DNA of 46,111 nt from a virus, in IMG/VR virus record IMGVR_UViG_3300021519_000018, positions 1 through 46,111 of that record; one strand, 5' to 3'. Below are positions 6,729 to 17,128 of the stretch, piece after piece; the first letter of the stretch is position 1; the number at the start of each line of letters is the position of its first letter. A program made the position numbers and the translations under genes. The notes beneath the pieces were generated by a model. It made no database searches and had not been told where the DNA came from. It saw only the letters and a program-made list of their open reading frames with translations.

Positions 6729-6934
6729 TTCTTCAGCACCCTGATTGCAAAGCGTGCTTCGTTCTTCATATCGTTGATATCGCAGCTCTTCCAGTCTGCA
6801 AGCGTTTGCAGCGCGCCAAGGGCAAAGCCCAGTCGGAACTGCGCTGCCTCAAGCTTGGCTTCCAGTGCTAACAACTGTTGTTCCTTTCGTTGGCGGCGGC
6901 TTGTGTCTTCTGGTTCTTGTCGCAGTGTTGTCAA
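6725..6934 (-). CDS. Small coiled-coil protein
   Basis: 69 aa, TTG start in a TTGA overlap with the helicase-like gene. It has a basic, Glu/Gln-rich N-terminal helix (SRRQRKEQQLLALEAKLEA) with heptad-like leucines, then a second helix ending in FAIRVLKK. Probably a small dimeric or adaptor protein. Translationally coupled on both sides; no family recognised. Confidence 0.55.
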   Translation of the reverse strand: MTTLRQEPEDTSRRQRKEQQLLALEAKLEAAQFRLGFALGALQTLADWKSCDINDMKNEARFAIRVLKK

Positions 6935-8286
6935 GGCGTGTTTTCTGGTGGTGTAACCATAAGTACGTCTCTTCCCCCTACCGTCTCTCGTGACAGAACT
7001 AGCTGCCCTTCGTCGTGCAGCAACTCTACGAGTCTCCTGAAACGGTCAGCGGTTACTCCTCTGGTGCGCACTGAACGCTGTAGGTCCGTAAAGGAAACTG
7101 GGCCAGCAGCTAACACGTATTCGGTAACGCGACGCTGGTGGCGGTACTCCTTGTCTTCCAGTGCTTCTGTTGCAACCGGCACTGAGAAACGCATGACGTG
7201 GTCGATGTAGCGGCAGGCGCTCTTGAGCGTTTCTTCCTGCACCAGCACCCTTGGCACTCCGTCACCCGGCTGCCAACGGCTGACAGTTTGAACGCCAGCA
7301 AACTTGAGCGCGGTTGCTTGGTAGCGACCGAAGAGCGCGGCTTGTGCTTGCGCTCGGACTGGGTCAACGCGCTCAATAGACGCAATGTCGTCTTTGTGGC
7401 GGGTATACCAAGCAACCCAGTAGTCCACGGCACCGGGGGTAAGTTGCACTGCACCCCAGCTTGAGGAAGGAACGGAACCAAGCTGCACGAGCCATTCCAC
7501 TAACTCGTTTCTTTTTGCTGAGTCAACTGGTGACGGGAGCGGCACCCAACTTGGCGGTGCCCCGTACGGAATAGCCAGCAACCGGCCCATCATGCCCCCA
7601 GACACCGCTTCTTCTCCTAGCTGCTCCTTCCAAGTGTTGAGCGTTACTGTTCCCATCAACGCGCAACTGCAGCGGCTTGGGCGCACGTAGTTTGTGCGGG
7701 TCTGCGAACCCGGCTGGAACCCTGAGTAGATACGCAGCAGCATCTGCCGCGTCTCCCCAAGGAACGAGTAGCCCTTGTCCTGCACCAGCAGGTCCTTGAG
7801 TTCGTCCCAAAGCAGCAGGTGGCACGGTGGCGTTGCTCCTTCGCGTTCCCACTTGTGTGCTTCTTCTGCGTCCTTCGGCCCGAGCAAGTCCAGCAGCCGC
7901 GCTTGCGACATATGGCCACCCGTAATTACCTTGACCAAGTTGTGTTCGTCTTCATCGTCCAACGAAACCCCGCAAAGGTGCTGGTACTGGTAGTTAGCGT
8001 CCCTTGCAACCCTTTCTGCAATTGACAGCGAGGTTGTTTTGTGTGACGTCGCCGACGCGCCAATCAGCGCTGTGTACAACGTAAGGGGTTCTGAGGCGTC
8101 TGCCCACTGCAAGTGAGCCTTCCACCCTATTACCGACGACAGCAGCGTGTAGGCGGCTCCTGCGAAGGCCTCAGGCGGTACCTCAACGTGTCCGTAGTAC
8201 GTGTCGGTGTAGCGCCTGATCCAACCGTCTTCCGGTACGCAGAGTTCTTGAACTGTTCCTTGCGCAATTTCGTACGAGTCACTCAT
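6931..8286 (-). CDS. DUF3987-like primase-helicase ATPase
   Basis: 451 aa, ATG start in an ATGA overlap. An N-terminal region is followed by a RecA-like ATPase core: P-loop-like ASATSHKT (residues 77-84) and Walker B-like LLLWDELKDLL (Asp161-Glu162). The C-terminal 70 or so residues form a winged-helix-type domain (SFTDLQRSVRTRGVTADRFRRLVELL). This layout is that of DUF3987 and related phage or plasmid helicase-like proteins that work with a Toprim primase, which is encoded two genes upstream. The P-loop is unusual: the Gly before Lys is His82. It probably acts as the replicative or loader helicase-like ATPase. Confidence 0.65.
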   Translation of the reverse strand: MSDSYEIAQGTVQELCVPEDGWIRRYTDTYYGHVEVPPEAFAGAAYTLLSSVIGWKAHLQWADASEPLTLYTALIGASATSHKTTSLSIAERVARDANYQYQHLCGVSLDDEDEHNLVKVITGGHMSQARLLDLLGPKDAEEAHKWEREGATPPCHLLLWDELKDLLVQDKGYSFLGETRQMLLRIYSGFQPGSQTRTNYVRPSRCSCALMGTVTLNTWKEQLGEEAVSGGMMGRLLAIPYGAPPSWVPLPSPVDSAKRNELVEWLVQLGSVPSSSWGAVQLTPGAVDYWVAWYTRHKDDIASIERVDPVRAQAQAALFGRYQATALKFAGVQTVSRWQPGDGVPRVLVQEETLKSACRYIDHVMRFSVPVATEALEDKEYRHQRRVTEYVLAAGPVSFTDLQRSVRTRGVTADRFRRLVELLHDEGQLVLSRETVGGRDVLMVTPPENTP

Positions 8287-8506
8287 TCGAAGACGACAAT
8301 AGCGAAAGGCGGCGAGCCAGCTTTACCAGCTCTGGTGAGCATCGGCAAAGTGTTTTGTCGTCTGCTTTGTACAGCGCTGACACAAGTTCTGTCAGTAGAC
8401 CCTTGGGGCCGTTCTCACTTTCGTTCTCGATGATCTTGGACATCAGCGGAAAGTCCTGCACTGCGTGTGCTTTTGAAAGGTTGTTCGCCAGTGTGTCAAG
8501 TCGCAA
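8279..8506 (-). CDS. Small protein between primase and helicase-like ATPase
   Basis: 75 aa. The frame is open further upstream, but that part is arginine-rich shadow of the primase; the TTG at 8506, with GGAG about 8 bases before it, is preferred. Helical, with a short Cys pair (LCRCSPEL) and a basic C-terminal helix. It lies between the primase and the helicase-like ATPase and overlaps the latter by ATGA, so it may be a replication accessory or loader. No family recognised. Confidence 0.55.
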   Translation of the reverse strand: MRLDTLANNLSKAHAVQDFPLMSKIIENESENGPKGLLTELVSALYKADDKTLCRCSPELVKLARRLSLLSSSNE

Positions 8507-8511
8507 TTTGG

Positions 8512-9429
8512 TTAGCTCCCTGCGATTGCTCTTGTAAGTTCCCGCGCTCGCGCGAAATCTTGCCCCTGCAGTTTGTACTGCGGTGGTACGACGCCGCGTG
8601 TCCACGCAACGAGTTCGTACACGTCGGCTGATTCGATACCGCACACCCAGCAACCCCAGCGGTCTTCTCCTACCCACGCGCCGGGTGATTTTCCGTCGTC
8701 GTGAAGCGGGCAAAACGCTTCTCGCGTTTCGCGCCCTGTTGAGTCTGTGCGAGCGGGGCGGTTTGGGAGCTTGGGACATATTGACCGCCATACGAGTAGA
8801 AGATCTGGTTTGTCGCTTCGGATTGGTCTGCGAAACGTTGGGAGTGAAACGCGTAACGGCAACGGTCGCGGAGCAACCGGTGGCGGAAGGTCGTCAATCA
8901 GTAGCGCGATCTTTTCCCAGTCTGCTTCTGCAACTCTGGGAGTACCGGCTTGTAGCCATTCTTTGAGGTCTGAGCCGACGGGCGGCAGTAGCCGCTCTAC
9001 GGTGAGTTCTGTTACGTGTGTCTGCAGTAGCGCCGCGCCCTTGTTCCCGGCGTCGTCGTTGTCGAACGCGCACACGACGCGGTCGATCTGGTAGTCGGTA
9101 ATGAAATCGTTGATCTCTGCGGAGTGCATAGACGCGCCGGGGACTGCTGCAATTGTGTAAGGGCAGTCAGACTGCAGCGCTGCCAGTGCGTCGGTTTCTC
9201 CTTCGCAAAGTAGCAGTGTGAAACGTTGCGTGTCGATCTCTGTCAAAGGAAACCAAAGTGCGCCCTTTGCCTTTGCGCCAGTTGTCCAAAGGCGCGCTCC
9301 CCCCTGCCGGTGGATCTCCTTGTAGGGGTCAATGTACCGTTCTGCTGTAGACCCGTCGGCGTGGTCGTAGTCAAACCAAAGTCGTGGCCCTGTTGTGTAC
9401 CGCACCCCCGCCTCTAGGGCGAGGTCCAT
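8512..9429 (-). CDS. Primase-like protein, Toprim followed by CHC2 zinc finger (reversed domain order)
   Basis: 305 aa from the ATG at 9429, which has AAAAGGG six bases upstream and directly follows the RuvC-like stop; the frame is open to 9603, so a longer form overlapping RuvC is possible. The Toprim domain occupies about residues 65-150: EGETD at 76-80 holds the catalytic Glu, and FDNDDAG near 122-128 the DxD metal site. A linker of about 90 residues follows. The C-terminus holds a CHC2-type zinc finger with Cys240, His243, Cys260 and Cys263. DnaG-type primases have the zinc finger first and Toprim later; here the order is reversed. It should synthesise primers with the DUF3987-like ATPase. 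Confidence 0.75.
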   Translation of the reverse strand: MDLALEAGVRYTTGPRLWFDYDHADGSTAERYIDPYKEIHRQGGARLWTTGAKAKGALWFPLTEIDTQRFTLLLCEGETDALAALQSDCPYTIAAVPGASMHSAEINDFITDYQIDRVVCAFDNDDAGNKGAALLQTHVTELTVERLLPPVGSDLKEWLQAGTPRVAEADWEKIALLIDDLPPPVAPRPLPLRVSLPTFRRPIRSDKPDLLLVWRSICPKLPNRPARTDSTGRETREAFCPLHDDGKSPGAWVGEDRWGCWVCGIESADVYELVAWTRGVVPPQYKLQGQDFARARELTRAIAGS

Positions 9430-9430
9430 A

Positions 9431-10030
9431 TCAAGCCCTTTTCGCGCGAACCACGCGCGTGTTAGCTCCCGGTGATTTTGGCTTGGCCCGTGCTTTAGCT
9501 CTTGCGCGGGTTGGGCTTGCCTGTGCCCGGTGTGATCCTCGGGCTGCGATTGCGATGAGTATTGAGTCAACTTCGTCCTGTGGTGTGTCGGGTTCTGCAC
9601 CAAGTTCTGTTGCGCGTTCCGTAAGTGCTGCCTTAGAGGCTGAGCGTTCTAGCCCACACTTCTCGCGCCAGTCCGGCGGCAGGAACCTGAGAATCTCAAC
9701 TGTCGGAAACTGTTGCCGCGTTGCTTGGTGCACTGCTCCTGCGCAGTACGAAAGCTCTAGTGCTGTCTTTGCGTTGATACCGAGAAACATTCTTTCGATA
9801 CCAACAACCTTGAGTTTATAAGTGACACCGTCTGTCTCTGAGCGCGCGTCGAGGGTCTCTTTGAGGATCCTGAGCTGCTTAGAGATCTGTGTGTCTCGCC
9901 AACCCTTGTCTGGCTCGTTGATCTTGAGGATCCCGTGCCACTTGATCCCACCGTCCAGTAGGTCTACAAACGCAAACCCAATGAGCTTTGTGCTTGGGTC
10001 AAGTCCGAGTACTAAGTCAACTGTTGTCAC
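9431..10030 (-). CDS. RuvC-like Holliday-junction resolvase
   Basis: 199 aa. The GTG start at 10030 places the first catalytic motif at the N-terminus and overlaps the upstream gene by 14 bases. RuvC/RNase H fold signatures: Asp11 in LGLDPSTK, Glu79 in VVGIERMF, and a C-terminal DEVDSILIA (Asp152 and Asp155). The last 40 residues are Lys/Arg/Ala-rich and probably bind DNA. It should resolve branched DNA before packaging. It sits beside the primase and the Cas4-like nuclease. Confidence 0.8.
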   Translation of the reverse strand: MTTVDLVLGLDPSTKLIGFAFVDLLDGGIKWHGILKINEPDKGWRDTQISKQLRILKETLDARSETDGVTYKLKVVGIERMFLGINAKTALELSYCAGAVHQATRQQFPTVEILRFLPPDWREKCGLERSASKAALTERATELGAEPDTPQDEVDSILIAIAARGSHRAQASPTRARAKARAKPKSPGANTRVVRAKRA

Positions 10031-10217
10031 TAAACCTCGGCAGTCGGTCGAGGGTCTGGGCGTAGTGCCGACCCGTTTCAACGCGGCGAACCAAAGGGTT
10101 CATTTGCCGGGTTTTGTTTGTGTGTAGACAACGTAGACAACGATCACCGTCGTAGTGAATCGACAACGGTTCTGAGCAGTACGTACACGCCCTACCCGCT
10201 GGGTAGATTTGCAGCAA
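10017..10217 (-). CDS. Small zinc-ribbon protein
   Basis: 66 aa, TTG start with AAAGG about 8 bases upstream. A four-cysteine ribbon (CTYC near residues 11-14, CLRC near 27-30) should bind one zinc ion. The basic C-terminal part (VRRVETGRHYAQTLDRL) may contact DNA or RNA. It overlaps the RuvC-like gene, suggesting coupled expression and perhaps a shared task. Confidence 0.6.
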   Translation of the reverse strand: MLQIYPAGRACTYCSEPLSIHYDGDRCLRCLHTNKTRQMNPLVRRVETGRHYAQTLDRLPRFSDNS

Positions 10218-10408: not shown

Positions 10409-10757
10409 TTTGTACGGTTGTCAGCAGCTGTGGTGCAAGCAGTTCAATTAGGCCAAGACGCCAGCCCGGAGTAAGCGCTTGCAGAGACGTTTCTTGTGGG
10501 ATCCCAAGCTGGGCAAGCCGCCTGTTTACTGCGACGTCTCCCCAGTGCGGGATAGACCGCAACACGGCGTTGATGCGCCACGTCTTGGTCCAGTCTGGTG
10601 GGTTGCCGACGATCATTGCAACGGTTGTTGCAACCTCGTGTTCGTCGCGCAGTCTCCAATCGCGCTTGATATTGCTGCGGAGACGGCGAATCTCGTTTGC
10701 GTGGCCAAGCGCGTTCAGCCGCTGGTTTTCAATCGCTTTGTCAAAGTTATACGGCAA
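10386..10757 (-). CDS. Mycobacterial integration-host-factor-like (mIHF) DNA-binding protein
   Basis: 123 aa from a TTG at 10757 with AGGA just upstream, overlapping the nuclease stop by 11 bases. The layout matches actinobacterial IHF: a basic N-terminal helix (HANEIRRLRSNIKR), then a core with an S13-like helix-two-turn-helix (TWRINAVLRSIPHWGDVAVNRRLAQLGI) and a final helix (GWRLGLIELL). These proteins bend or coat DNA and occur in actinobacteria and their phages. It is a strong pointer to the host phylum. Here it may serve replication, packaging or transcription control. Confidence 0.6.
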   Translation of the reverse strand: MPYNFDKAIENQRLNALGHANEIRRLRSNIKRDWRLRDEHEVATTVAMIVGNPPDWTKTWRINAVLRSIPHWGDVAVNRRLAQLGIPQETSLQALTPGWRLGLIELLAPQLLTTVQIEDDTTD

Positions 10758-11451
10758 AGTCGTCCTGTTCGGGCGGGAAGCAAGTGTCTGCGTACGGGCA
10801 GCAAATCTCTGTCCGCTGGCCACACGGTGCCTCAAAGTCGTAATAGCGGGCCTTAGTGGTTGCTTGTGCGCGGTTCTCGCACATACCCCGGGGGGGTATA
10901 CCGCCAATCATCTTTTCGGCGCGTTCCGTAAGTTCTGCAATACGGTCGGCGTCAGGAAACGGAATCACAAACCGCTTTGGTTCCTTGCCGTACTTGTCGA
11001 GTAGCACCATCTCGCCTTCCCACTCAGCGCCTCCGCACTGAAGGGACATCTGGTACTGATACCAGTTGAGTTGTGCAAGGTGGTACGGGGCCGGTTTCGC
11101 GTAACCCGTAAACTTGATCTCTATGATTCGCTTGAGGCAGTAGTCCACTGCGTCGGGGTGGCAGGTCCCACCGTAACCGTTATCAAGCTCCTGACCGTGC
11201 AGCAGCTGTTCGCCGTCGTAGTCACGCGCAAGCTCAATAAAGCGCTCTTCTGCAGCGTGGCCTGAGTAGAACATTACTTCTCTGCCGATTGGCCCTCGGA
11301 CGCGTTCCTCTTGTGGGATACGGACTTCGTTCCACGAGTAACGGGCACACGCGCCAAGCATTGAAGGTCGGAGTTCCCCTGTCGGCGGTGTCCATTCCTT
11401 CGTGCTAGCCAGTTCGGGTTCCGTCCTTGTCTGGACAGTGAGCGTTGCCAA
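10747..11451 (-). CDS. Cas4/RecB-family PD-(D/E)XK exonuclease
   Basis: 234 aa from a TTG at 11451 with AAGGGGA upstream. Nuclease motifs: HPDAVDY with Asp100, and IIEIKF with Glu111 and Lys113, followed by a helix LAQLNWYQYQM typical of RecB-family nucleases. A single N-terminal Cys (Cys35, LGACARYSW) and a C-terminal cluster (Cys210, Cys217/218, Cys224) fit the iron-sulphur cluster of Cas4-like exonucleases. It probably processes DNA ends in recombination-dependent replication with SSB and the RuvC-like resolvase. No CRISPR genes or arrays are nearby. Confidence 0.75.
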   Translation of the reverse strand: MATLTVQTRTEPELASTKEWTPPTGELRPSMLGACARYSWNEVRIPQEERVRGPIGREVMFYSGHAAEERFIELARDYDGEQLLHGQELDNGYGGTCHPDAVDYCLKRIIEIKFTGYAKPAPYHLAQLNWYQYQMSLQCGGAEWEGEMVLLDKYGKEPKRFVIPFPDADRIAELTERAEKMIGGIPPRGMCENRAQATTKARYYDFEAPCGQRTEICCPYADTCFPPEQDDFAV

Positions 11452-13332: not shown

Positions 13333-13550
13333 TGGAAAGGGCTCCTTTGCAGGGTGTTGTTGAAAGTTGTGCAAGTTGTGCAAATTGTGCAGGTGTCCCT
13401 TCCCTCGTAGTCCTAAGCGCGGAAAACGTAGTCTTGGAGTGTTGGTGTGTGTTTTTGTACAACTTTGTAATAAATAGTGCTATATAGCAGGTAAAAGACA
13501 GATTCTGCGATGTGCAATCGCGTGTGCAACGCTGCACAATCGTGTGCAAC
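13302..13550. promoter_or_regulatory. Divergent control region with clustered TGTGCAAC repeats
   Basis: About 250 bases between the leftward peptide gene and the rightward HNH gene hold about ten copies of an 8-base motif TTGTGCA(A) or GTGCAAY, in both orientations. They lie at about 13302, 13311, 13324, 13366, 13375, 13384, 13511, 13523, 13533 and 13542, with a related TTGTACAA at 13455. The copies flank an A/T-rich core at 13467-13500. The arrangement suits a multi-site operator or an iteron-type origin. No DnaA box (TTATCCACA) was seen. Confidence 0.5.
13478..13488. promoter_or_regulatory. Palindromic TATATA core, candidate -10
   Basis: GCTATATAGC at 13479-13488 is a perfect palindrome. 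With the preceding T it gives an extended -10 (TGCTATATA) on the plus strand, about 90 bases before the HNH start, and could also serve the minus strand. A TTGTAC at 13455-13460 is a poor-spacing -35 candidate (20 bases). Confidence 0.4.
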
Positions 13551-13578
13551 TTCCTACACAATCTACGGAAAAGCGACT

Positions 13579-14073
13579 ATGTCTGACGAAACTGGTTCTA
13601 GCGATTCGCGCGCGTCCTTGTCTGTCCGCGGGGATTACACCAGAAGGGGGAAGCGCCGCCGTCGGAAGGAGTTTGTGATTTTTTCGCGGGACGACTTCAG
13701 GTGCGTGTACTGCGGGAAGAGTTCTGTGGAAGACGGCGTCAAGTTGGAGGCGGACCACGTAGTGGCGCGGTCGGCTGGTGGTTTGGACACGGCTGGCAAT
13801 CTTGTGACCAGTTGCCGGGTTTGCAATCGTTCGAAGTTTGACGAGGAGCTGGCACTGGATACGCGTGACCGGCTGCTGTTGCTGGCGGCAACGCGCAACC
13901 GGTCACGCAGGATCTCAGACGATATGCCAGTGGATCTGGGACGTAGTCCCCAAGCTCAGGCGATCACGAAGTCCCAAGAAACCTTGTCGGGCAGCGGGCA
14001 GCCGGAGTCTGGGAGTATCACCGGCGAGTCTGTGATTGCGTCTGAGAAACCGTCGTCTGCTGGGTCGTCGTGA
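13579..14073 (+). CDS. HNH endonuclease
   Basis: 164 aa from the ATG at 13579 (open frame to 13510). N-terminal basic stretch RRGKRRRRK. The HNH core has Cys42 and Cys45 (CVYCGK), Asp59-His60 (LEADHVVARSAGG), Asn74, Cys79, Cys82-Asn83 and Lys86 (CRVCNRSK), so it is a zinc-ribbon-stabilised HNH nuclease. The C-terminal 70 residues are Ser/Gly-rich. It is the only rightward gene within the leftward block and converges on, and overlaps by 118 bases, the gene at 13956-14396. It could be a free-standing mobile (homing-type) nuclease or a nuclease acting at the adjacent repeats. Confidence 0.8.
   Translation: MSDETGSSDSRASLSVRGDYTRRGKRRRRKEFVIFSRDDFRCVYCGKSSVEDGVKLEADHVVARSAGGLDTAGNLVTSCRVCNRSKFDEELALDTRDRLLLLAATRNRSRRISDDMPVDLGRSPQAQAITKSQETLSGSGQPESGSITGESVIASEKPSSAGSS
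13615..13628 (+). repeat. 14-base dispersed repeat, copy 2
   Basis: TCCTTGTCTGTCCG within codons 13-17 of the HNH gene; shares GCG to the left with copy 1. Confidence 0.6.
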
Positions 14074-14909: not shown

Positions 14910-14996
14910 TTACTTGTTCCTGTCGTTTGCTTGCCGCCAGTACCATCCGATTATGAGCGCGGCAATGACTGTGCTGAACAGGTCAGCCAGTTTCAT
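14910..14996 (-). CDS. 28-residue single-span membrane peptide coupled to the VWA gene
   Basis: ATG start in an ATGA overlap with the VWA stop, the tightest sort of translational coupling. The peptide has a short N-terminal segment (MKLADLF), one hydrophobic span (STVIAALIIGWYW) and a polar, basic tail (RQANDRNK). Its stop lies two bases before the next start. The coupling suggests it acts with the MoxR-VWA pair, for example by bringing it to the membrane. Confidence 0.55.
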   Translation of the reverse strand: MKLADLFSTVIAALIIGWYWRQANDRNK

Positions 14997-16366
14997 GTTC
15001 TTGTCGCGGTCTCGGCGTTTAGCTTTTGGAACTGGTACATAGATTCAATGGTGGTGATCTTCTTAGCTTTTACGATCTGTCGGCATTCTTCTGTGAGTCG
15101 GCGTGACGACTGATCGTTGATTCCGGTTACGTGCCCGTCGCAGATCCAGACGCGTGGCTCTTGCTGCTTGCCGAGCCAAGCAAGTGCTGGCCCGTCGCAA
15201 CCGTTGCCGCCGTACTCTGCTTGCAGGTCTTCGGGTGCTGCGCGCTTGCCCTTCTTGGCGACGATGTGCAGGTACCCTTGGTAGGAACTAGAGCAGTAGG
15301 TTGCAATGGTTACTCCGGGTGAGTTCTCCATGATGAAGGTGATGTCTTCGTCAGAGAGACTCATTGAGCCTGAGCAGTCGATGAGTACAGCGCCAGCGTT
15401 CTTGTGTCGGCGCTTTGAACCAAATACGTGACCGTCTGTGCAGAACCTGTCGGGGCGCTTGATAAACGCGCCTTCGTCCGACAGTTTCCAGTGATTACGT
15501 CTGGTCTTTGACGCGAGTGGCAGTGACAGCGGTGGCTCGATTATGAGCATTTGGCACCACTCGGTGTCTTCCTCGTCGCCGTATTCGTCGGTGTCGTCTG
15601 GTAGCTCGGCTGCTCTGTCGTACACAAACTCTTTGCCGTCTTCCTCGTTTAGGTGACGGCTGATCCTTGCCCAAACTTCTTTGCTGACTCTTTCTGTTTC
15701 GCGCTGGTCTCCGCGAGCGCAGAGCCATTCGTCAGTCGGTTCTGTTTCGCAGAGTTCGCTTGCAACGATCATGTACGCTTGGTGCAGCGCTTGCCGGTAC
15801 TTACGGCGTTGCGTTGCGTTTGGGTCAGTGTCGCTTGGTTCGTGGTGGTGCCAGTAGTCCCAGTATGTTGTTCCGTCTAGGCCGTTGCCTCCGACTACTG
15901 ACTTTGCGATTGTGGTGAAGGCAGATACGAGGTCGTTCTGGTCTTCGTAGAACTCAAGCGCTCCTTTTGGGAGCCGTGGTGGCGGAACGAACGTTGCTGC
16001 CTGTGAGACGTCCGTAACTGTTTCTGTGTCCCACGAGTCGTGGTATTCGTCTCGTACGCCGTGGTCGCTTACGGTGTCGATTGCGTCGAGTAGCCCGCTG
16101 ATTCTTGCTGCGTCCACTGCGTCAACGATTTCCAGTGGAATGGTTGAGGTCGCCGAGAACTCGGCAGTGGTTTCGTGACCGCACGCGACGGTCAGGTTTG
16201 CGATTGACCTCCTGTACTGCGACTGGGCCGACAGGTCAGTAGGTGCTGCGACGACGCGACGGGTGAAGTCTGTTGCTTCGCGCGTTGAGTCTGTTGCTTT
16301 CCACTCGGCGTTGTCTCCGCCAATCTGTGGACGCTTGAAGGTGTTCGGGAGTACTGGGAAACCCAT
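14993..16366 (-). CDS. VWA-domain protein, partner of MoxR-type ATPase (CobT/NorD-like)
   Basis: 457 aa, ATG start with AGGAG six bases upstream; that AGGAG overlaps the MoxR stop. The N-terminal 320 residues are mostly helical and acidic with no recognised domain. The C-terminal domain is von Willebrand factor A: strand GAVLID with MIDAS motif DCSGSMS (Asp330, Ser332, Ser334), a GGNGCDGP loop near 386-393 in place of the usual Thr motif, and the third metal ligand Asp410 in WICDGHVTG. In MoxR-VWA pairs (CobS/CobT, NorQ/NorD, RavA/ViaA) the VWA protein gives the ATPase its target. No chelatase or nitric-oxide-reductase gene is present, so the target is unknown. Confidence 0.8.
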   Translation of the reverse strand: MGFPVLPNTFKRPQIGGDNAEWKATDSTREATDFTRRVVAAPTDLSAQSQYRRSIANLTVACGHETTAEFSATSTIPLEIVDAVDAARISGLLDAIDTVSDHGVRDEYHDSWDTETVTDVSQAATFVPPPRLPKGALEFYEDQNDLVSAFTTIAKSVVGGNGLDGTTYWDYWHHHEPSDTDPNATQRRKYRQALHQAYMIVASELCETEPTDEWLCARGDQRETERVSKEVWARISRHLNEEDGKEFVYDRAAELPDDTDEYGDEEDTEWCQMLIIEPPLSLPLASKTRRNHWKLSDEGAFIKRPDRFCTDGHVFGSKRRHKNAGAVLIDCSGSMSLSDEDITFIMENSPGVTIATYCSSSYQGYLHIVAKKGKRAAPEDLQAEYGGNGCDGPALAWLGKQQEPRVWICDGHVTGINDQSSRRLTEECRQIVKAKKITTIESMYQFQKLNAETATRT

Positions 16367-16375
16367 ACTTGGCTC

Positions 16376-17071
16376 CTAGAGTCGGCTCTGCAGTTCGTAC
16401 GCGTTGATGATGTCTTGCGCGCGCTCTCCGAATACGGCTACGCACGCTGACACGACGTCCATCTTGCTGCGCGCGTCGGCGAACGCGAACCACTTGCGTA
16501 CCGAAGTTCTGGTGCGGGGGTTCTCCGACGACGTTGCCTCGTCGGCAATCTTGCGAAGGTCTTCTGGCAGTGCTTCCAGCGCCGCTGGGTGTGGGCGCGT
16601 GATCTTGATGATTGCGTCCATGCGGTCAATGAGTGCCTCCGGCAGGTCTGACTCGTTACCGTTCATCGTGATAACGAAGTTCGTGCTCGGCTGTGGCTTG
16701 ACTGTCTCACCGTTCGGCAGTGTGAGCTGCGCGCTTGGCTGGTCGTCAAGGATTGCGTAGCAGATTGAGTGGCAGTCTCCGCTCGCCCGGTCCAGCTCAT
16801 TGAGGACGTAGCGCGCGCCGTCGAGCCAGCTACGGATAGCCGGTCCGTGCATCCACTTGTAGCTGCCCTCGGTCATAATGTAGTGGCCGCGCAGCTCTGA
16901 GGCGGGGGTCTCTTCAGTGAGGGTGTTGGTGTACATGGGCTGATCGGGGGTCAGGTTGTAGTGCATTGCTGCGTACGTCTTGCCGGTGCCCGGAGGTCCG
17001 TACAACAGAACGCGTCGAAGGTTGCCTACGCACTTCTCGGCGAGTTCCCACTGGTCAATCGTGATTGCCAT
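16376..17071 (-). CDS. MoxR-type AAA+ ATPase (CobS/NorQ-like)
   Basis: 231 aa from the ATG at 17071, with GGAG 8 bases upstream; an ATG at 17107 is an alternative. Walker A GPPGTGKT is at 25-32. The Walker B position reads YVLNELDRA, with Asn91-Glu92 where Asp-Glu is usual. Sensor 1 is ITMNG (Thr135, Asn137), and the arginine finger is Arg150 in LIDRMD. The length is that of a compact single AAA_5 core with a short lid (SVRKWFAFADARS). Such ATPases form hexamers that remodel or activate other proteins. It lies 9 bases upstream of the VWA gene, forming a two-gene chaperone module. Confidence 0.8.
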   Translation of the reverse strand: MAITIDQWELAEKCVGNLRRVLLYGPPGTGKTYAAMHYNLTPDQPMYTNTLTEETPASELRGHYIMTEGSYKWMHGPAIRSWLDGARYVLNELDRASGDCHSICYAILDDQPSAQLTLPNGETVKPQPSTNFVITMNGNESDLPEALIDRMDAIIKITRPHPAALEALPEDLRKIADEATSSENPRTRTSVRKWFAFADARSKMDVVSACVAVFGERAQDIINAYELQSRL

Positions 17072-17128
17072 TTCCGTTGCTCCGTCGGTTGAGTGTGTCA
17101 GTCTCATAGAAACTGAGAGGCTGTGTTG

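Follow-up and report, generated by a model that had tools for sequence, protein, structure and literature searches.

A minus-strand gene of the window (the whole 46,111-nucleotide stretch analysed, from a tailed phage as judged by its head, portal, terminase and tail genes) probably encodes a DNA primase of the DnaG/T7 gp4 type in which the CHC2 zinc-binding domain, normally N-terminal to the RNA polymerase domain, has come to follow it. The parts are familiar; their order is the reverse of the standard primase layout. Translation of the open reading frame (ORF; 8512-9429) yields a 305-amino acid product with the Toprim motifs EGETD at residues 76-80 and DND at residues 123-125, followed by Cys240, His243, Cys260 and Cys263, all as reported in an earlier note made from the sequence alone. 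The two domains lie in this order, with conserved catalytic and zinc-ligand residues and a conserved operon layout. The likeliest reading, judging from sequence, is a putative working primase that would act with the neighbouring ATPase. The gene is organised as follows:

8512..9465, minus strand: conserved coding portion of the primase gene (ATG at 9429; conserved as coding sequence in the primase frame from about 9465)
9226..9465, minus strand: N-terminal subdomain of the T7 gp4/DnaG-type RNA polymerase domain (1nui profile match, S-CBP42 alignment, model)
8959..9210, minus strand: Toprim domain with the catalytic Glu (EGETD) and DxD (DND) (PF13155; motifs invariant in three viruses)
8815..8895, minus strand: linker of about 27 residues, rich in proline (modelled with low confidence)
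8515..8814, minus strand: C-terminal CHC2 zinc-binding domain (tblastn, hhalign and profile searches)
8641..8712, minus strand: zinc ligands C240 (8710-8712), H243 (8701-8703), C260 (8650-8652) and C263 (8641-8643), from the sequence

Toprim_2 (PF13155) matches residues 74-157 of the primase with an E-value of 2.9e-8, over the Pfam cut-off. The C-terminal motif reads C240-x2-H243-x16-C260-x2-C263-G, and its four ligands are invariant in alignments with relatives. No zinc finger was found ahead of the N-terminal subdomain (9226..9465, minus strand). An N-terminal zinc domain is a criterion for primases of the DnaG/T7 gp4 type and is part of the published description of the DnaG family (PMC9198812); since the window protein lacks it, we place the protein among the Toprim primases as a permuted form.

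A search for homologues of the same order, as the earlier note had advised, found two. L001, an IMG/VR sequence, is 67% identical to the window primase; L011 (RFSE01000059.1, a contig of a metagenome-assembled genome, MAG, labelled Proteobacteria) shows about 80% identity overall and 87% in the finger. In all three members, taken to be related uncultivated phages, the finger (residues 240-263) comes after Toprim (residues 74-157) within a single open frame, which bears out the Toprim-first, CHC2-last order originally claimed, and the primase is preceded by a RuvC-like gene and followed by a DUF3987-type ATPase gene. Identity between the window and L001 proteins is 64% in the catalytic domain, 48% in the linker and 78% in the finger, making the linker the least and the finger the most conserved part. 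Nucleotide differences between the two concentrate at third codon positions throughout, linker and finger included; where dN/dS could be measured in the catalytic and zinc domains, it came to 0.10-0.20. The whole primase is under purifying selection.

These data dispose of a frame error or chimera. That an assembly or sequencing artefact joined two genes, or that the motif arose by chance, has virtually no likelihood: two other assemblies, one of them a bacterial MAG contig, carry the same fusion, with proteins 67% and 80% identical to that of the window and a codon bias that stays in frame through the junction. Recurrence of the fusion, third-position bias and low dN/dS together exclude an artefact in practice. 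The three known members all belong to one close lineage, and may therefore stem from a single recent fusion in which the finger took on another role.

Identification of the C-terminal finger as CHC2 required sensitive methods. Of the HMM scan that had been suggested for both domains, the Toprim part succeeded with PF13155. The CHC2 part, where a failed profile search had been viewed as decisive against the finger, failed at face value with Pfam's PF01807, which has no match at the primase C-terminus or anywhere in the whole record; more sensitive searches do find the finger. A profile of 12 CHC2 fingers taken from standard-order or stand-alone proteins outside the window-primase family (the stand-alone protein of phage Mvi-JY20 among them) matches it with an E-value of 4.1e-8, the runner-up among 1092 six-frame stretches of the window scoring 0.07. 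Comparison of the three-member family with four unrelated CHC2 domains by hhalign gave a probability of 98.7% (E 3.6e-16). In a tblastn search of 2.3 Gb, the best phage match to the last 107 residues was the 160-amino acid Mvi-JY20 protein (34% identity, E 1e-4), itself a member of PF01807 (E 8.8e-14). A three-row profile (window, L001 and Mvi-JY20) also picks up 1d0q, a DnaG zinc domain of known structure, with an E-value of 9.8e-5, a supporting rather than independent result as Mvi-JY20 sits in the query profile. PHROGs matches at the C-terminus are weak (phrog_360, E 0.014; phrog_11992, E 0.006); one of the two is a primase family. The window finger is too divergent for Pfam's CHC2 model, and divergent CHC2 fingers of this kind escape automatic annotation.

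Evidence that the catalytic half belongs to a primase comes from profile and structure comparisons. A profile built from the family and 26 viral relatives matches the RNA polymerase domain of T7 gp4 (1nui 80-229) with an E-value of 6.8e-29, the match beginning at residue 80, directly after the T7 gp4 zinc domain. The catalytic half also aligns full-length to T7-like primases (the primase-helicase of Synechococcus phage S-CBP42). An AlphaFold2 model of the window primase (35-row alignment) has a mean pLDDT of 78.6, which drops below 50 at model residues 200-215, in the linker, where a disordered stretch parts the catalytic half from the finger. CHC2 sequences were placed opposite the finger in the alignment, so that the model is no independent proof of the finger half. 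The structure search covered model residues 1-204, that is, the part without the finger half. Residues 6-191 superimpose on T7 gp4 primase (Z 14.9, 3.1 Å, 170 residues), the alignment running from T7 gp4 residue 81 on; Z is 11.5-14.3 against DnaG, 10.4 against T4 gp61 and about 9 or below against RecR and topoisomerases. The primase-specific N-terminal subdomain ahead of Toprim is present in the window protein, according to both the 1nui profile and the model.

The Toprim fold occurs in nucleases and topoisomerases too, and RecR and topoisomerase I are among the weaker structure matches, as might be found if the protein were no primase at all, being instead a Toprim nuclease or other Toprim protein with an acquired zinc finger. 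We regard this as very improbable, because an RNA polymerase domain with the primase-specific subdomain fits T7 gp4, DnaG and Twinkle (E 7e-29, Z 11.5-15) while RecR and topoisomerases score lower, and because CHC2 is a primase-type finger. The window protein likely works like a DnaG/T7-type primase.

In the primase frame, the sequence is conserved as coding DNA beyond the ATG at 9429, upstream as far as about 9465-9485, which lies within the end of the ruvC-like gene, so the ORF as annotated probably begins too late. At 9430-9485 the window differs from L001 in the pattern of the primase frame, not that of ruvC (3/18, 1/19 and 8/18 by codon position). The peptide encoded upstream of the ATG, RAWFARKGLDMDLALEAGVRY, resembles the usual start of the polymerase domain. 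No ATG, GTG or TTG lies in the primase frame between TTG 9570 and ATG 9429, leaving TTG 9570 as the nearest upstream start; its position is common to L001 and L011, where it falls within conserved ruvC codons. Possibly translation begins at TTG 9570 inside ruvC, or some ribosomes shift from ruvC, or the conservation stems from both frames.

The neighbouring genes are as follows:

9431..10081, minus strand: RuvC-like Holliday junction resolvase gene, upstream neighbour (PF02075, E 5.5e-6; 3' end overlaps the primase frame)
8279..8506, minus strand: small ORF with a putative TTG start (homologue in L011, absent from L001)
6931..8286, minus strand: DUF3987-like ATPase, probable helicase partner (Walker A GASATSHKT, Walker B LLLWDE)

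The small ORF had been put forward as a supplier of missing parts. This idea finds no backing, as the product shows no recognised domain and no finger motif, and the gene is missing from L001, in which the primase gene directly overlaps that of the ATPase. The description of the adjacent ATPase as DUF3987-like is correct: its L001 homologue, 79% identical to the window copy, passes the PF13148 cut-off with 39.8 bits in total, the window copy itself being below detection with that model. Four ATPase homologues were aligned. The window ATPase matches phrog_14296, annotated 'DNA primase' (E 4.6e-7). In Microcystis phage Mae-JY09 a homologue (L005, 991-2663; 31% identical) comes after a small protein with four cysteines, and the neighbours read include no Toprim gene. 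No DNA polymerase was recognised among the window ORFs scanned against PHROGs, and the replication context of the window is thus incomplete. A Cas4-like exonuclease (10747-11451, minus strand; phrog_1990, E 5e-7) lies in the same replication-recombination cluster; an HNH endonuclease (13510-14073, plus strand; phrog_14314, E 1e-14) is on the strand opposite to the cluster. Further along, a MoxR/CobS-like AAA_5 ATPase (16376-17107) sits beside a 457-amino acid protein without assigned function (14993-17107 for the pair, minus strand).

The window primase shares with T7 gp4 and S-CBP42 the N-terminal subdomain, the Toprim domain and the catalytic motifs. T7 gp4 starts with its zinc domain and ends in a fused DnaB-type helicase, whereas here the finger is last, the ORF ends after it and the DUF3987-like ATPase is a separate gene (6931-8286). 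Bacterial DnaG likewise combines a CHC2 zinc domain (1d0q, 2au3) with a Toprim-based polymerase domain; in the window protein the order is reversed, the polymerase domain is much shorter and the C-terminal helicase-binding domain of DnaG is absent, the protein ending about 40 residues past the last ligand in a segment that continues the CHC2 domain. T4 gp61 is similar in that it is short, has two domains joined by a flexible linker and is paired with a helicase on another polypeptide, but it consists of a zinc domain, an 18-residue linker and a polymerase domain, compared with polymerase domain, linker of about 27 residues and zinc domain here. Among split phage primases, the stand-alone CHC2 protein of Mvi-JY20 is the closest relative of the window finger in phage records; unlike Mvi-JY20 and jumbo phages, the window and its two homologues carry CHC2 and Toprim in one open frame. 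In human PrimPol, of the archaeo-eukaryotic type, the zinc finger also follows the catalytic domain, an analogy only, since both the catalytic fold and the UL52-type finger are unrelated. The PrimPol finger is required for priming (PMC4027207).

In the mechanism that we propose, the Toprim domain would make short RNA primers, and the zinc domain, on its flexible linker, would pick the template site and hold the primer 5' end. Several primases might sit on the ATPase ring, with the zinc domain of one molecule serving the polymerase domain of its neighbour, as in DnaG; the reversed covalent order could be tolerated for this reason. In E. coli primase, zinc and polymerase domains act in trans (PMC6783573). 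In T4, both primase domains dock separately on the helicase, the zinc domain holds the primer 5' end, and altering the 18-residue linker barely affects primer length (PMC10359460). In jumbo phages the primase zinc ribbon is often encoded by a gene of its own (PMC7824862). Because domains cooperate between E. coli DnaG subunits and are encoded apart in some phages, their order need not determine what the protein does, and beside the E. coli, T4, jumbo-phage and Mvi-JY20 examples, a finger placed C-terminally on a flexible linker of 27 residues comes as no mechanical surprise. The arrangement would likely have arisen when the original N-terminal finger was lost and a stand-alone CHC2 gene became fused downstream. 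One phage, Mvi-JY20, does have the two as stand-alone genes, with CHC2 at about 76 kb and a finger-less Toprim protein at 86 kb, some 10 kb apart.

That template recognition and catalysis are linked in another way, as envisaged at the outset, is possible; a radical change is less likely given that the domains are known to cooperate in trans. That the reversed tether alters the mechanism, with the zinc domain acting in trans only or reaching the primer-template from its opposite side, seems doubtful to us. If true, primer length, start-site choice and hand-off would differ from those of T4, T7 and DnaG, and the protein would be a natural test of whether primase domain order matters. Whether zinc and polymerase domains cooperate within one molecule or between neighbours is debated, as is the role of the linker as a measure of primer length; a natural reversed-order primase lets covalent order and linker path be probed directly.

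The finger could also serve an active Toprim primase by docking on the DUF3987-type ATPase or on single-stranded DNA, with no part in template reading. It adjoins the ATPase gene in gene order, is better conserved towards L001 than the catalytic domain (78% versus 64%), and the T4 zinc domain makes contact with the helicase as well (PMC10359460). Its ligand spacing and W/C-rich core are nonetheless those of ordinary template-reading CHC2 domains, and docking is compatible with template reading, T4 doing both. A purely docking finger is thus distinctly unlikely, and a template-reading one remains our preferred interpretation.

The reversed order appears to be rare. In 41 viral loci that share a related catalytic domain (among the matches listed), no finger follows Toprim, and wherever a finger motif was recognisable in the same ORF of these loci it was N-terminal. 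About 15 further phage, plasmid and contig relatives contained no C-terminal finger, the finger being N-terminal or on a separate gene. Finger-family scans of IMG/VR and GTDB contigs returned no member beyond the known three, in 387 genomes surveyed from the phylum of the MAG the fusion turned up in the MAG itself only, and a pattern scan gave two further loci, both of standard order. No Toprim-then-CHC2 primase was found in the literature searched, which consisted of papers open without subscription. Several candidate precedents were rejected. The degenerate finger of EH93P1 is N-terminal. The usual order or a split was found in S-CBP42, Leptospira and Manganitrophus plasmid proteins, Streptomyces phages Dubu, phiSASD1 and Immanuel3, Mycobacterium phage Veracruz, Cutibacterium phage P105 and Microbacterium phage Sparcetus. 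The Zeta1847 and Colwellia phage 9A proteins, which gave long structural alignments, carry their finger-like Cys/His motifs N-terminally and lack any behind Toprim.

The order might instead be common and merely unrecorded. Pfam misses the window finger and so could miss others, and sequence scans for same-order primases reach only fairly close relatives, which makes the absence of further cases provisional. Against this stand the 41 related viral loci and the viral, genome, phage and plasmid searches, from which no more cases emerged, and we consider such commonness unlikely.

In three of the split phages the CHC2 and Toprim genes overlap by about 150-185 bases in different frames (Veracruz, L067 2906-3791; P105, L068 2888-3797; Immanuel3, L065 2951-3824). 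From their sequences, these overlaps are candidate sites of programmed frameshifting that would give a primase of standard order.
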